A stretch of 28,802 nt of DNA, taken from assembly GCA_934754775.1 (NCBI GenBank), contig CAKVIM010000017.1, positions 1 to 28,802 on the forward strand, given 5' to 3'. The position numbers and the translations under genes are program-made. This document shows, piece by piece, positions 1 through 7,628 of this stretch. Under the pieces are notes generated by a model. That model ran no database searches and was not told where the DNA came from. It saw nothing but the letters and a program-made list of their open reading frames with translations. The stretch is from an uncultured Candidatus Melainabacteria bacterium (lineage in GTDB: Bacteria; Cyanobacteriota; Vampirovibrionia; Gastranaerophilales; Gastranaerophilaceae). How positions within the stretch are numbered: the first letter of the stretch is position 1; each line of letters begins with the position of its first letter.

Positions 1-32
1 ATTCCCTTATTACCCTATTACCTTATTCCCTT
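1..32. repeat. Right arm of ribosomal-operon inverted-repeat element (copy D, cut by window edge)
   Basis: The first 32 bases match the right arm of the three complete elements at 1741-1877, 2311-2447 and 2866-3003, and are identical to that of the copy ending at 1877. The arm consists of four degenerate octamers (ATTCCCTT, ATTACCCT, ATTACCTT, ATTCCCTT). It lies just downstream of the rpoA stop, so the rest of the element should be found left of the window, probably between rpoA and the next gene, which is usually rplQ. Confidence 0.85.
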
Positions 33-39
33 CATCTGC

Positions 40-1041
40 TTACTCAGCAGATTCGATAACCATACCTTCTTCATCCATTTCAGGGTTTGGAGCTAAGTCT
101 AAACCGAAGTGGTGTAATCTTTCGATTACTTCATCAGAAGATTTTTTACCGAAGTTTTTAATGTTCAACAAATCATGTTCTGATTTCTTCAACAATTCTG
201 CCATTGAATTGATGCTAGCTCTTTTCAAGCAGTTGTATGCACGAACTGAAAGTTCCAATTCATCAATAGTGATTGATGGTTCTTGTTCAGCAGTTTCTGC
301 AACTTCATCTTGAACAACAGCTTTTTCTTCAACATCTTTATGATTTGACTTACCAGCAATAGCTGAGATTTGAACAAAATGATCAATCAACAAATCAGCA
401 GCTTGAGTTAATGCTGTTGTTACATCAACTGTACCATTTGACCAAATTTCTAAAGTCAATTTATCAAAATCGATGCTATCACCAACACGAGTATTTTCTA
501 CTTCGTAGCTAACTCTCTTGATTGGCATGAATGTTGCATCAATAGGAAGCATATCAATAGGAGTTCCTGCCTTAGCATTTCTTGGAACGTCATGAGCTAC
601 ATAGCCCTTGCCTGTTTCTACAGTTACATCAGCGTGGAATGAACCACCGTCTGCAATTGTACAAATCAACCAATCAGGATTTACAACCTTAACGCCTGCA
701 GGTAACTGGATATCACTTGCTAATACCGGCCCCGGTTTATCGATATCAATTCTTAATTGTTGAGGTTCTTTTGAATCCGTCTTGATTGCCAAACCTTTTA
801 GGTTCAACATAACATCAATAACATCTTCCAAAACACCTGGAATTGCAGTATATTCGTGAGTAATACCTTCAATTCTGCAAGAAGTTACTGCTGTACCTTC
901 CAAGCTTGAAAGTAAAACACGTCTAAGTGCATTACCGATAGTGGTTCCAAAGCCTCTTTCCAATGGTTCGATAGTAAATTTACCATATTGTGAACCATCT
1001 GAGCTGGTCATTGTATTAACGGTTTTGATTTTTAATTCCAT
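40..1041 (-). CDS. rpoA: DNA-directed RNA polymerase subunit alpha
   Basis: This gene encodes the alpha subunit, which dimerises to start RNA polymerase assembly and whose C-terminal domain contacts promoters and activators. From the chosen start the protein has 333 residues. The N-terminal domain (about 1-230) shows the conserved GNALRRVLLSS helix near residue 36. An acidic linker follows, then a C-terminal helix-hairpin-helix domain (SVRAYNCLKRASI, NFGKKSSDEV). I start at the ATG at 1041 because GGAG lies 8 nt upstream and the protein then begins MELKIKTVN. An ATG 13 codons further upstream would run into the rpsD stop and has no ribosome binding site. It is the last gene of the infA-rpmJ-rpsM-rpsK-rpsD-rpoA run in this window and begins 19 nt after rpsD, the only downstream spacer here without the repeat element. 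Confidence 0.97.
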   Translation of the reverse strand: MELKIKTVNTMTSSDGSQYGKFTIEPLERGFGTTIGNALRRVLLSSLEGTAVTSCRIEGITHEYTAIPGVLEDVIDVMLNLKGLAIKTDSKEPQQLRIDIDKPGPVLASDIQLPAGVKVVNPDWLICTIADGGSFHADVTVETGKGYVAHDVPRNAKAGTPIDMLPIDATFMPIKRVSYEVENTRVGDSIDFDKLTLEIWSNGTVDVTTALTQAADLLIDHFVQISAIAGKSNHKDVEEKAVVQDEVAETAEQEPSITIDELELSVRAYNCLKRASINSMAELLKKSEHDLLNIKNFGKKSSDEVIERLHHFGLDLAPNPEMDEEGMVIESAE

Positions 1042-1060: not shown

Positions 1061-1663
1061 CTATTTTGAATAGTACTCAATTACAAGTTGTTCTTTGAAA
1101 TCAGGATCTAATTCTTCTCTTTGAGGAATTCTTTCGAATGTAATTTTTAATGCATCTTTATCAACTGTAATCCAAGCTGGAGCACAAGATAAATCAATAG
1201 CACTCATAACTGTCTTCAAGTATTCGTTGCTTCTTGCTTTAATAGTAATTACATCGCCTGCTTTTACTAAATATGATGGAATATCTACTTTCTTACCGTT
1301 AACTAATACGTGACCGTGGTTAACGATTTGTCTTGATTGTTTACGAGTTACGCCGAAACCAGCTCTGAATAAAATGTTATCTAATCTTGTTTCAAGAATT
1401 TGTAACAAAATTGTACCTGTAACGCCTTTTTTTCTTGCTGCTTCGTTATAATATTTAGCAAATTGTTTTTCACTTACTAAGTATGTTAATCTGATTTTTT
1501 GTTTTTCATTTAGGTGGATTGCATATTCAGAAAGTTTTTTTCTAACAGCACCATGTTGACCTGATGCAGTTTGCTTCATTGAAGAAGTTAGTTTTCTGTT
1601 AGACAAATCCTTTACACCGTAATTACGGAATAATTTATTGGTTGGTCCTGTGTATCTTGCCAT
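1061..1663 (-). CDS. rpsD: 30S ribosomal protein S4
   Basis: S4 is a primary 16S rRNA binder that nucleates 30S assembly. The 200-residue product has an N-terminal domain that starts MARYTGP and lacks the zinc-binding cysteines of C+ forms. The S4 RNA-binding fold follows at about 92-155 (RLDNILFRAGFGVTRKQSRQ, HGHVLVNGKKVDIPSY). The start at 1663 has AAAAGGAG upstream. An in-frame ATG at 1693 would add ten basic residues but has no ribosome binding site and falls inside a predicted leader hairpin, so I reject it. In many bacteria S4 represses its own synthesis by binding an mRNA structure. The hairpin at 1685-1730 is a candidate site here, though this is only inferred. Confidence 0.97.
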   Translation of the reverse strand: MARYTGPTNKLFRNYGVKDLSNRKLTSSMKQTASGQHGAVRKKLSEYAIHLNEKQKIRLTYLVSEKQFAKYYNEAARKKGVTGTILLQILETRLDNILFRAGFGVTRKQSRQIVNHGHVLVNGKKVDIPSYLVKAGDVITIKARSNEYLKTVMSAIDLSCAPAWITVDKDALKITFERIPQREELDPDFKEQLVIEYYSK

Positions 1664-1684
1664 TATTTTTCTCCTTTTTCTTGT

Positions 1685-1730
1685 GTTGGGCATCTATGGT
1701 TTGTGCTTTTGGCGGAGCACAAGCCCCAAC
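1685..1730 (-). promoter_or_regulatory. Structured leader just upstream of rpsD (candidate S4-responsive element)
   Basis: Read on the mRNA strand, GTTGGG (1730-1725) pairs with CCCAAC (1690-1685). Inside it, TTGTGCT (1722-1716) pairs with AGCACAA (1707-1701) around an 8-nt loop, CCGCCAAA. One further C-G pair can extend the outer stem with a bulged G. The structure ends 21 nt before the rpsD ATG and is not part of the repeat element next to it. It is the only strong GC-containing hairpin in the operon spacers outside the repeats. Autoregulation by S4 through leader RNA is established in other bacteria, but assigning that role here is inference. Confidence 0.45.
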
Positions 1731-1740
1731 GTTTTTACAT

Positions 1741-1877
1741 AAGGGAATAGAGGAATAAGGTAATGAGGAAATAAGTGATTATTATTTTCTTCTGTATTAA
1801 CTGCGTTTTACCTTGGTAATATGAGCGAAGCGAATTTTTTCTCTTATTCCCTTATTACCCTATTACCTTATTCCCTT
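1741..1877. repeat. Inverted-repeat element, copy A (rpsK-rpsD spacer)
   Basis: This 137-bp element has 35-nt imperfect terminal inverted repeats (1741-1775 and 1843-1877) that match at 29 of 35 positions. Three of the mismatches become G-U pairs on the operon mRNA strand. The core holds a small hairpin TTAC-CTTG-GTAA (1808-1819) and the motif GAGCGAAGCG followed by a T run. The right arm is built of four degenerate octamers. It has no coding capacity and no obvious target-site duplication. It is co-transcribed with the operon. A MITE- or REP-like element, or an RNA processing signal, would both fit. Confidence 0.9.
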
Positions 1878-1882
1878 CCTAA

Positions 1883-2269
1883 CTATACTCTACGTTTTTT
1901 AGGTGGACGACATCCGTTGTGAGGAATTGGTGTTACGTCCTTAATCAAAGTGATTTCCAAACCTGCTGCTTGGATAGCTCTGATTGCTGTTTCACGACCT
2001 GAACCAGGTCCTTTGATGTGAACTTCAACTTTCTTCATACCTTGGTCAATTGACTTTTTAGCAACCAATTCTGCTGCTGATTGAGCTGCAAACGGAGTAC
2101 CTTTTCTAGCACCCTTGAAGCCGGTAGCACCAGCTGTTGCCCAAGCAATAGCATTACCTTGTGTATCAGTAGAAGTTACAATTGTATTGTTAAAAGTAGA
2201 TTGAATATGCACAACCCCTTGCAATACATTTTTCTTTTCTTTTTTCTTTGTAGTTTTTGGTCTTGCCAT
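1883..2269 (-). CDS. rpsK: 30S ribosomal protein S11
   Basis: S11 sits on the 30S platform and helps form the mRNA exit and Shine-Dalgarno region. The 128-residue product has the usual length. It has a lysine-rich N-terminus ([13 protein letters not shown]), the core [13 protein letters not shown], and the ending [13 protein letters not shown] that is typical of the family. The start at 2269 has a weak AGGAA upstream. The gene lies between two copies of the inverted-repeat element, copy B 41 nt before its start and copy A 5 nt after its stop, so both spacers around it are repeat-filled. Nothing in the coding sequence is unusual. Confidence 0.97.
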
Positions 2270-2310
2270 TTTTGTATTCCTTTATGTTTCTATTATTTTA
2301 TTTCTTTTTG

Positions 2311-2447
2311 AAGGGATTAAGGGAATAAGGTAATGAGGAAATAAGTGGTTTTTAATTTCTTCTTTTTTACTTATGTTTTACTTTGGTAATATGAGCGAAG
2401 CGAATTTTTTCTCTTATTCCCTTATTACCCTATTGCCTCTTTCCCTT
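2311..2447. repeat. Inverted-repeat element, copy B (rpsM-rpsK spacer)
   Basis: This 137-bp element lies in the same orientation as copies A and C. Its terminal arms (2311-2345 and 2413-2447) match at 28 of 35 positions. The internal hairpin is TTAC-TTTG-GTAA (2378-2389). Upstream it shares about 13 further bases (ending TTTCTTTTTG) with copy C, which suggests that duplication included some flank. The element ends 5 nt before the rpsM stop codon. Confidence 0.9.
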
Positions 2448-2452
2448 TTTAA

Positions 2453-2821
2453 TTATTTCTTCTTACCGGCGATAGGTCCAGTCTTTTTACCACGTCTGGT
2501 TCTAGCGTTAGTCTTAGTTCTTTGACCTCTACAAGGAAGTCCTCTTTTGTGTCTCATCCCTCTGAATGAGTTGATTTCTTGAAGACGTTTGATGTTCATT
2601 GTAACTTCACGTCTCAAATCACCTTCAATATTGTATTCAGATAATGCGTTACGCAATTCTCTGATATCATCTTCTGTTAAATCATCTGTTCTTAAATCAG
2701 GTGAAATACCAGTTTTTTCAAGAATTTTTTTGCTTCTTGCAGGTCCTATACCATAGATATAGGTTAAAGCGATTTCTAGTCTTTTGTTACGAGGTAAGTC
2801 TACCCCAACTAATCTTGCCAT
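2453..2821 (-). CDS. rpsM: 30S ribosomal protein S13
   Basis: S13 lies in the head of the small subunit and touches the large subunit and P-site tRNA. The 122-residue product shows the family start ([20 protein letters not shown]), the helix-hairpin-helix around [17 protein letters not shown], and the ending [20 protein letters not shown] followed by a basic tail. The start at 2821 follows AAAGGAAAC. In E. coli the S4-binding pseudoknot of this operon lies before rpsM. Here the spacer before rpsM is occupied by repeat copy C, and I see no E. coli-like pseudoknot. Confidence 0.97.
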
Positions 2822-2865
2822 GTTTTGTTTCCTTTATTTTTTTGTACTTAACTTATTTCTTTTTG

Positions 2866-3003
2866 AAGGGAATAGGGGAATAAGGTAATGAGGAAATAAG
2901 TGGTTATTCTTTTCTTCTGTATTAACTGCGTCTTGCATTGGCAATATGAGCGAAGCGAATTTTTTTCTCTTATTCCCTTATTACCCTATTGCCTCATTCC
3001 CTT
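2866..3003. repeat. Inverted-repeat element, copy C (rpmJ-rpsM spacer)
   Basis: This 138-bp element is one T longer than copies A and B, in the T run after GAGCGAAGCGAA. Its terminal arms match at 29 of 35 positions. Its internal hairpin is TTGC-ATTG-GCAA (2933-2944). Relative to copies A and B the second stem pair has changed on both sides (A-T to G-C), a compensatory change that keeps the stem. It lies 4 nt beyond the rpmJ stop. Confidence 0.9.
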
Positions 3004-3007
3004 TAGA

Positions 3008-3121
3008 TTAACCTTGTCTTTGTTTGTGCTTAGGGTTTTCGCAAATTACAGCAACTCTGCCTTTTCTTTTGATAACCTTGCATTTGTCGCACATAGGTTT
3101 TACTGATGATCTTGTTTTCAT
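3008..3121 (-). CDS. rpmJ: 50S ribosomal protein L36
   Basis: Translating the minus strand from the ATG at 3121 gives a 37-residue protein that begins [20 protein letters not shown] and ends KHKQRQG. It has the zinc-ribbon ligands of the C+ form of L36: Cys11, Cys14, Cys27 and His32. L36 is a small late-assembling protein of the 50S subunit. AAAGGAAAA precedes the start. It is placed between infA (40 nt upstream) and rpsM, the usual order. The zinc-binding form implies dependence on zinc supply. Many genomes carry a second, zinc-free copy, but none is seen here. Confidence 0.95.
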
Positions 3122-4506: not shown

Positions 4507-4527
4507 AAATAAAGTTTGGAAGATAAA

Positions 4528-7487: not shown

Positions 7488-7566
7488 TATTACACACCCC
7501 ATAAACAAGTTATAACAAAGGGTATTATAAAACAACATAATGTAATGATTTATTACAAGATTTTAT

Positions 7567-7602
7567 AAAAATAGAGCGGGCGAAAACTAAAGTTTTCGCC
7601 CG
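7567..7602 (-). terminator. Rho-independent terminator after the acetyl-CoA synthetase gene
   Basis: The perfect 12-bp stem CGGGCGAAAACT (7577-7588) and its complement (7591-7602) is followed on the minus strand by CTCTATTTTTAT. It lies 27 nt after the stop of the gene at 7629-9794 and separates it from the amidohydrolase gene. Confidence 0.85.
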
Positions 7603-7628
7603 TCCCAATTTTTTAATTCACCTACAAA

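Follow-up and report, generated by a model that had tools for sequence, protein, structure and literature searches.

Palindromic repeats between cistrons have been known since REP and, to our knowledge, it is unsettled whether they act as parasites, as RNA signals or in both ways. The ERIC (IRU) sequences of enterobacteria are imperfect palindromes of about 127 bp located between cistrons and in untranslated regions, and the STRR of cyanobacteria are heptamers arranged between genes in direct arrays. NEMIS, which are MITEs, are short and non-coding, bear terminal inverted repeats and form hairpins that are cut by RNase III, an enzyme for which a 35-nt imperfect duplex would be a suitable substrate. 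Two reports (PMC3733652, PMC12306157) describe REP, BIME and REPIN sequences as dispersed palindromes near gene ends, also within operons, and add that GTAG REP ends often supply the stop codon to flanking genes. According to a third report (PMC4679880), TAACTGA heptamer arrays are also found in putative ribosomal protein operons, and in the best-studied genome most of these repeats lie just upstream of start codons.

The window considered here, that is, the whole stretch of 28,802 nucleotides analysed, belongs to a Gastranaerophilales bacterium, a relative of the cyanobacteria that lives in the gut, and carries palindromic elements in the spacers of its alpha operon. They resemble REP, BIME and REPIN sequences as dispersed palindromes near gene ends, also within operons. 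REPs, however, measure 20-40 bp and carry a GTAG or CGTC tag, whereas the window elements measure 137-138 bp, with arms composed of 7- or 8-nt units, and inspection by eye revealed no unpaired GTAG or CGTC tag at the ends or in the immediate flanks of the window copies. REP is associated with RAYT, which is inconsistent among the relatives studied here (PF01797 proteins in 8 of 12 genomes, none in the element-rich genome G290). ERIC sequences are imperfect palindromes of similar size that share the operon-spacer location (15 of 15 elements between co-directional genes in the related genome G087), but they have one conserved sequence, while the arms found here are wholly family-specific, with at most a short common core. 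STRR and TAACTGA repeats form direct arrays, whereas the present units are arrayed as inverted arms behind stop codons. With NEMIS and other MITEs the elements share their short, non-coding nature and their terminal inverted repeats, and many dispersed copies occur as well, the dispersal being that of the relatives' families; they differ from a NEMIS-type MITE in that no target duplication was seen and the arms are not conserved. Our literature searches yielded no description that we recognised as these elements in Gastranaerophilales. We class them as a variant of intercistronic palindromic repeats that departs from REP in size and tag.

Results

Organisation of the window copies

All genes of the operon considered here lie on the minus strand, in the order rpmJ (3008..3121), rpsM (2453..2821), rpsK (1883..2269), rpsD (1061..1663) and rpoA (40..1041), the first four being named from their sequence. 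The first-pass annotation had reported three copies of an inverted-repeat element with imperfect arms of 35 nt in this operon. Re-measurement returned the same coordinates and lengths: copy 3 (2866..3003, minus strand, 138 nt, arms 2969-3003 and 2866-2900) occupies the rpmJ-rpsM spacer, copy 2 (2311..2447, minus strand, 137 nt, arms 2413-2447 and 2311-2345) the rpsM-rpsK spacer, and copy 1 (1741..1877, minus strand, 137 nt, arms 1843-1877 and 1741-1775) the rpsK-rpsD spacer. The recomputed arms likewise matched at 29, 28 and 29 of 35 positions in copies 1, 2 and 3, and the infA-rpmJ (40 nt) and rpsD-rpoA (19 nt) spacers of the window are empty, as had been stated. The annotation had overlooked a further filled spacer. 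Window positions 1..33 (minus strand) are identical to the end of copy 1 (33/33), so that the rpoA-rplQ spacer holds a fourth copy, within which the window opens and of which the first arm alone is present, truncated by the window edge; rplQ lies beyond the window and its position was taken from relatives. Read in operon sense, the copies begin 4 nt behind the stop codon of rpmJ, 5 nt behind those of rpsM and rpsK, and 6 nt behind that of rpoA. No further element of this design was retrieved from the window by the inverted-repeat detector. Elsewhere, between two minus-strand genes, positions 7563-7616 form an inverted repeat that is GC-rich at its centre, has a loop of 2 nt and is possibly a terminator.

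Ungapped identity to copy 1 over 146 nt, as given by a direct-repeat search, was 87% for copy 2 and 76% for copy 3, the latter value being an underestimate, as copy 3 has a 1-nt indel relative to copy 1. Each arm consists of four to five degenerate octamers (AGGGAATA, AGGTAATA, GGGTAATA), and arm self-identity at a shift of 8 amounts to 0.75-0.76. When the mRNA strand was folded, as the annotation had proposed, a long duplex was predicted in the transcript of the copies, with energies of -44.0, -39.1 and -45.5 kcal/mol for copies 1, 2 and 3 and z values, all of them -6.0 or below, of -7.9, -6.2 and -6.0 against 200 dinucleotide shuffles. Predicted antisense folds were also strong (-42 to -48 kcal/mol; z -5.6, -5.1 and -5.6). 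The window had no Rfam match above the gathering score; in the region 1650-3020, with E values of up to 1, the sole hit was a 22-bit miRNA match (cut-off 107). Viral contigs contained no exact match to a 21-nt piece of the loop.

A shared core

The three copies have in common a core motif, which reads AATTCGCTTCGCTCATA in copy 1, at 1820..1836 (copy 1), 2390..2406 (copy 2) and 2945..2961 (copy 3), in each case on the minus strand. Generalised as AATTCGCT-N(1-4)-GCTCATA, it had 10 distinct matches in 3.69 Mb, repeats of one place being counted once, and none in shuffled DNA. All 10 lie directly behind a 5' arm, with four different arm words involved; eight are enclosed by inverted repeats that the detector found, and two adjoin unit arrays (one cut by the contig end at locus L040, one in a composite at L361). 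Among 288 genomes of the family, 35 core matches were found in 16 genomes, and the reversed pattern had none. Among 30 such loci, the core by eye follows a unit array in 11, from six genomes, eight of these 11 having a detected inverted repeat, while in the other 19 the core sits at the tip of short stems in other palindromes or in ordinary sequence. The core is therefore a recurrent module, often located at the tip of a hairpin, that is not exclusive to these elements.

Occupancy of the alpha-operon spacers among relatives

A search with the 333-aa RpoA of the window returned 377 relatives, many titled Candidatus Gastranaerophilales, with identities of up to 95%, and the best 80 loci were used. 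A profile of the three window copies matched in one of these 80, L040, from goat colon, at a contig end, where the genome holds a copy 84% identical to the window element over 112 nt. Copy 1 had matches in 28 of the 288 family genomes, the best of them mostly confined to the 35-nt arm. In many relatives the corresponding alpha-operon spacers are long and contain inverted repeats of the same design in different unit words, such as AGTGACTA, GTGACTAGTGAATA, GGCACTAA, TGGAAAG, GTGAAGC and GTTAATAA.

We scored a spacer as occupied if it had a period of 7 or 8 and a score of at least 9, with at most 1 in 60 shuffles as good. In the window and L001-L052, the 53 nearest loci among the best 80 of 377 (several operons being incomplete), occupancy was 16/40 for rpmJ-rpsM, 9/42 for rpsM-rpsK, 20/44 for rpsK-rpsD and 9/51 for rpoA-rplQ, with 1/40 for infA-rpmJ and 0/51 for rpsD-rpoA; in L053-L080, rpsK-rpsD alone was occupied (3/27). 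At least one element was present in 26 of the 53 loci, mostly with unrelated 7- or 8-nt units, and nine loci had three or four; L040 has two unit types in adjoining spacers. The remaining 27 loci have none. They include L001, the closest by RpoA (95%) among the best 80 of 377, whose genome also lacks a match to the window element. At L010 and L016, alpha-operon spacers are short or none is significant. By comparison with this 26/53, elements fill 15 of the 368 co-directional gaps of G087; thresholds differ between the two figures, and species are not independent. Around rpsK (about 1.5 kb on each side), under a stricter threshold, elements were found in 2 of 41 family loci and in none of 20 outgroup loci (0/16 from the order and 0/4 from the class, two of the four class loci repeating L326 and L327), which makes them a feature of some lineages.

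A second repeat type, richer in GC and with the approximate ending GCGGAGCGTGAAGGAATAAT, takes up some of these alpha-operon spacers in L012, L018, L019, L020 and L025. L019, L028 and L034 are titled uncultured Acinetobacter, yet their RpoA is 86-90% identical to that of the window, and the titles look wrong.

Genome-wide distribution

Relatives searched with their own element gave 16 (G289), 49 (G290) and 17 (G087) match rows, which merged into 12, 34 and 8 sites, query included; seven rows in G290, again including the query, were near full length at 78% or more. When 788 kb of G087, the genome of L015, were scanned de novo, 15 elements belonging to three unit families were detected. All 15 lie between co-directional genes (368 such gaps), and none in the 104 convergent and 148 divergent gaps (252 together). 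The probability of this outcome, given the co-directional share, is 7e-4 if gaps are taken by number and 3e-5 if they are taken by length. Of the other intergenic inverted repeats in the same sample, 22 were co-directional, 22 were not and 1 was unassigned, and 15/0 against 22/22 gives p 0.0004. As a detector control, block-shuffled G087 DNA yielded no inverted repeat with a 7- or 8-nt period. Read in sense, fourteen elements start no more than 30 nt from the stop codon of the gene upstream, which one of the fourteen overlaps, and the fifteenth lies 62 nt behind a doubtful reading frame. In a wider, biased set of 69 elements, 62 were co-directional, 4 divergent, 2 convergent and 1 unassigned; three of the divergent cases concern the rpmJ-rpsM spacer, where the gene caller missed rpmJ because of its shortness, and the true exceptions are L061, L063 and G039 C1:23188. 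G outnumbers C in the 5' arm of 68 of these 69 elements.

Pfam named the flanks in G087, with 18 of 20 flanking proteins matched. The boundaries filled include TGT-NDK, DUF520-MgtE, EFP-AccB-AccC and S2-EF-Ts, together with four consecutive spacers of a flagellar row, FlgI-Rod-binding-x-FlgH-FlgN. The accB-accC spacer is filled by different words in G087, G290 and G129 (in the latter two, the names were read from protein starts). Putative flagellar spacers of G290 contain other palindromes, headed by GTAG, next to single arms, and 400 kb of G007 provided one borderline AT-rich candidate only.

Of 20 contig starts from G039 and G097 inspected for element ends, a few (L155, L167 and L170) begin in unit arrays, as judged by eye, and are too few for a claim. 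At the start of L167, and near position 1500 of L083 and L084, the C-rich arm of unit-array elements continues directly into apparent type IV pilin N-termini (KAAFTLAE...), and the junction apparently lies in an open frame, the frames being read by eye.

Presence, absence and possible mobility

The yajQ-mgtE spacer offers a clean case of presence and absence between relatives: it is an empty site of 21 nt in the window (4507..4527, plus strand) and of 11 nt in L388, whereas in G087 it measures 102 nt and contains an element. In the other 28 loci, mgtE was not found adjoining yajQ. In 15 aligned copies from the three families of G087, no target-site duplication was seen by eye. The alpha-operon copies of G290 are 83-88% identical to the query, as compared with 71-79% for the other near full-length copies, and three flagellar copies of G087 have one common loop; together these likenesses point to copying over short distances. 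In G289, neighbours have no clear excess of likeness over other copies (86% within the operon against 83-86% elsewhere).

PF01797 proteins were detected in 8 of 12 relatives' genomes tested, with no match in G290, which has 34 element sites, nor in G018, G179 and G007; G001 has one PF01797 match and no match to the window element. In G087, pairs of GTAG-headed palindromes (L421, 2002-2100 and 2963-3054) adjoin a Y1/RAYT gene; this is a separate REP system in Gastranaerophilales.

The comparison with a REP-like element or a MITE that had been put forward from the window alone holds for behaviour (copies elsewhere in relatives, presence and absence, location at gene ends) and is limited by the lack of a visible target duplication, by a length and lack of tag that do not suit REP, and by the inconsistent REP transposase gene. 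The test proposed to separate a mobile element from a processing signal gave both answers, as copies are dispersed and the same spacers are repeatedly filled by different sequences.

Possible selection at the RNA level

The rpsB-tsf spacer was examined in the best 30 of 58 tsf matches (L255-L284), together with L237 and L252, which were included for the elements they contain. Of 31 spacers, 27 (25/29 without the two added loci) had a predicted fold with z < -2, compared with 53 of 147 for co-directional control spacers between 45 and 200 nt long (p 1.6e-7 or 6.8e-7). The folds are formed by many unrelated sequences, among them short GC hairpins, palindromes of unit arrays, which by eye make up about a third of the 31, and other long hairpins. 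The antisense strand reached z < -2 in 25 of 31. For alpha-operon spacers of at least 45 nt in the nearest loci, the corresponding counts were 18/36 (rpmJ-rpsM) and 18/37 (rpsM-rpsK), both hardly above the control, 28/39 (rpsK-rpsD), 16/21 (rpoA-rplQ) and 2/11 (infA-rpmJ).

Arm mismatches in 67 distinct operonic elements comprised 79 G.U and 72 A.C (p 0.63), with no excess of G.U, and a first set of 55 elements had given 64 and 60; there is thus no sign of pairing kept on the mRNA strand. None of the six variable arm pairs of the window copies is compensatory. Arm matching in register was 18.8, compared with 14.5 (sd 0.5) after unit permutation, a difference inflated by detection. That every frame of the 5' arm contains a stop codon in 47/69 elements was rejected as a design feature, since 36.6 are reached when the unit columns are permuted. 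The bias in position and the hairpin present almost universally at rpsB-tsf suggest some function. The elements may also be an RNase III processing cassette, as had been proposed: all 15 in the unbiased G087 sample lie between co-directional genes, and the 35-nt arms would form a suitable duplex, but strand-specific, RNA-level selection was not demonstrable.

A different structure, a conserved hairpin ahead of rpsD (1664-1733, minus strand; GGGGCTTG ... GCC ... CAAACCATAGATGCCC), is a candidate S4 autoregulatory leader. In 36 aligned leaders (of 51 distinct ones extracted, loci lacking GGGGCTT being excluded), 94.2% of cells are paired. Cells with changes on both sides numbered 75, compared with 28.6 in shuffled and 3-11 in slid alignments; pairs with changes on both sides were not in excess (7 against 6.1 shuffled). 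The hairpin has no Rfam match.

Discussion

On balance, the window copies are probably a proliferating, non-coding intercistronic palindromic repeat, REP- or ERIC-like in behaviour and of its own make. It looks like a rapidly evolving counterpart of the palindromic repeats of other bacteria. In favour of this reading are the dispersed copies in relatives, the 84% copy in L040, the co-directional placement of all 15 elements in G087, the occupancy of the alpha-operon spacers, the presence and absence at yajQ-mgtE, the filling of the same spacers by different unit families in different species, and the internal core that elements with different arms can have in common. Copies would spread from spacer to spacer by copying, and old ones would decay or be overwritten by new families; survival would occur mainly inside operons, where a transcript hairpin may be harmless or helpful, the likeliest benefit being that the 3' end of the upstream message is shielded from exonucleases or that a cut site is supplied between cistrons. 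Against it count the lack of visible target duplications in 15 aligned copies, the element-free alpha operon of L001, the scarcity at rpsK (2/41 family and 0/20 outgroup loci), the core that follows a unit array in only 11 of 30 loci, the exceptions to co-directional placement in the wider set of 69, and the neighbouring copies of G289, whose likeness does not clearly exceed that of distant copies. It is possible, if less probable, that selection acts on an RNA signal at the cistron boundary, so that the spacer needs a hairpin of any sequence (for 3' end protection, cutting by RNase III or otherwise, or insulation) and unit arrays are one way to supply it. The 27 of 31 rpsB-tsf spacers folded by unrelated sequences, against 53/147 controls, the placement of all 15 G087 elements between co-directional genes and the detection-inflated in-register matching (18.8 against 14.5) agree with such a signal, but the balance of G.U and A.C mismatches (79 and 72, p 0.63), the lack of compensatory pairs (0/6), antisense folds of about equal stability, and the hairpin-free yajQ-mgtE spacers of the window and L388, together with the short or non-significant alpha spacers of L010 and L016, do not. 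A proliferating repeat kept between cistrons is ranked first and a selected structure second, and both can hold. More tentatively still, the hairpin might be kept at given cistron boundaries irrespective of sequence, with its stem rewritten in a genome-specific 7- or 8-nt word; position, polarity (the 5' arm being G-richer) and at times the internal core would then be what is fixed.

Mobility as a classical MITE, in which a transposase acting in trans recognises the 35-nt terminal repeats, would account for the inverted termini, the near-constant length in the window and the dispersed copies in relatives; we regard it as unlikely, given that the 15 aligned copies have no visible target duplications, that arms differ wholly between families with a common core and that all 15 G087 elements lie between co-directional genes. 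Mobilisation of REPIN or REP elements by a RAYT (Y1) transposase is very improbable: PF01797 occurs in 8 of 12 genomes, and GTAG-headed palindromes adjoin one such gene in G087 (L421), but the domain had no match in G290, G018, G179 and G007 and occurs in G001 without a match to the window element, and the copies have no GTAG or CGTC tag and measure 137 rather than 20-40 bp. Just as improbable are partial terminators or attenuators that tune downstream expression, in spite of the stable hairpins predicted behind stop codons within operons, for inspection of the window copies by eye showed no T-run behind the palindrome, and none of the G087 elements lies in a convergent gap, although such gaps are rich in other inverted repeats (18). 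That the window starts inside a copy might suggest an assembly artefact, an explanation we find scarcely credible when copies differ by substitutions and many relatives with different isolate names have the same architecture in the same spacers.

Conclusions

Repeats of this kind may break assemblies at essential operons, as the start of the window and the end of the L040 contig both fall within one. If a hairpin is indeed kept at given boundaries with its stem rewritten, a given operon boundary would keep one structure, spelt differently from species to species. As several unrelated spellings of one design are found in the same spacers, comparative genomics by itself could tell apart selection that acts on place, on structure or on sequence.
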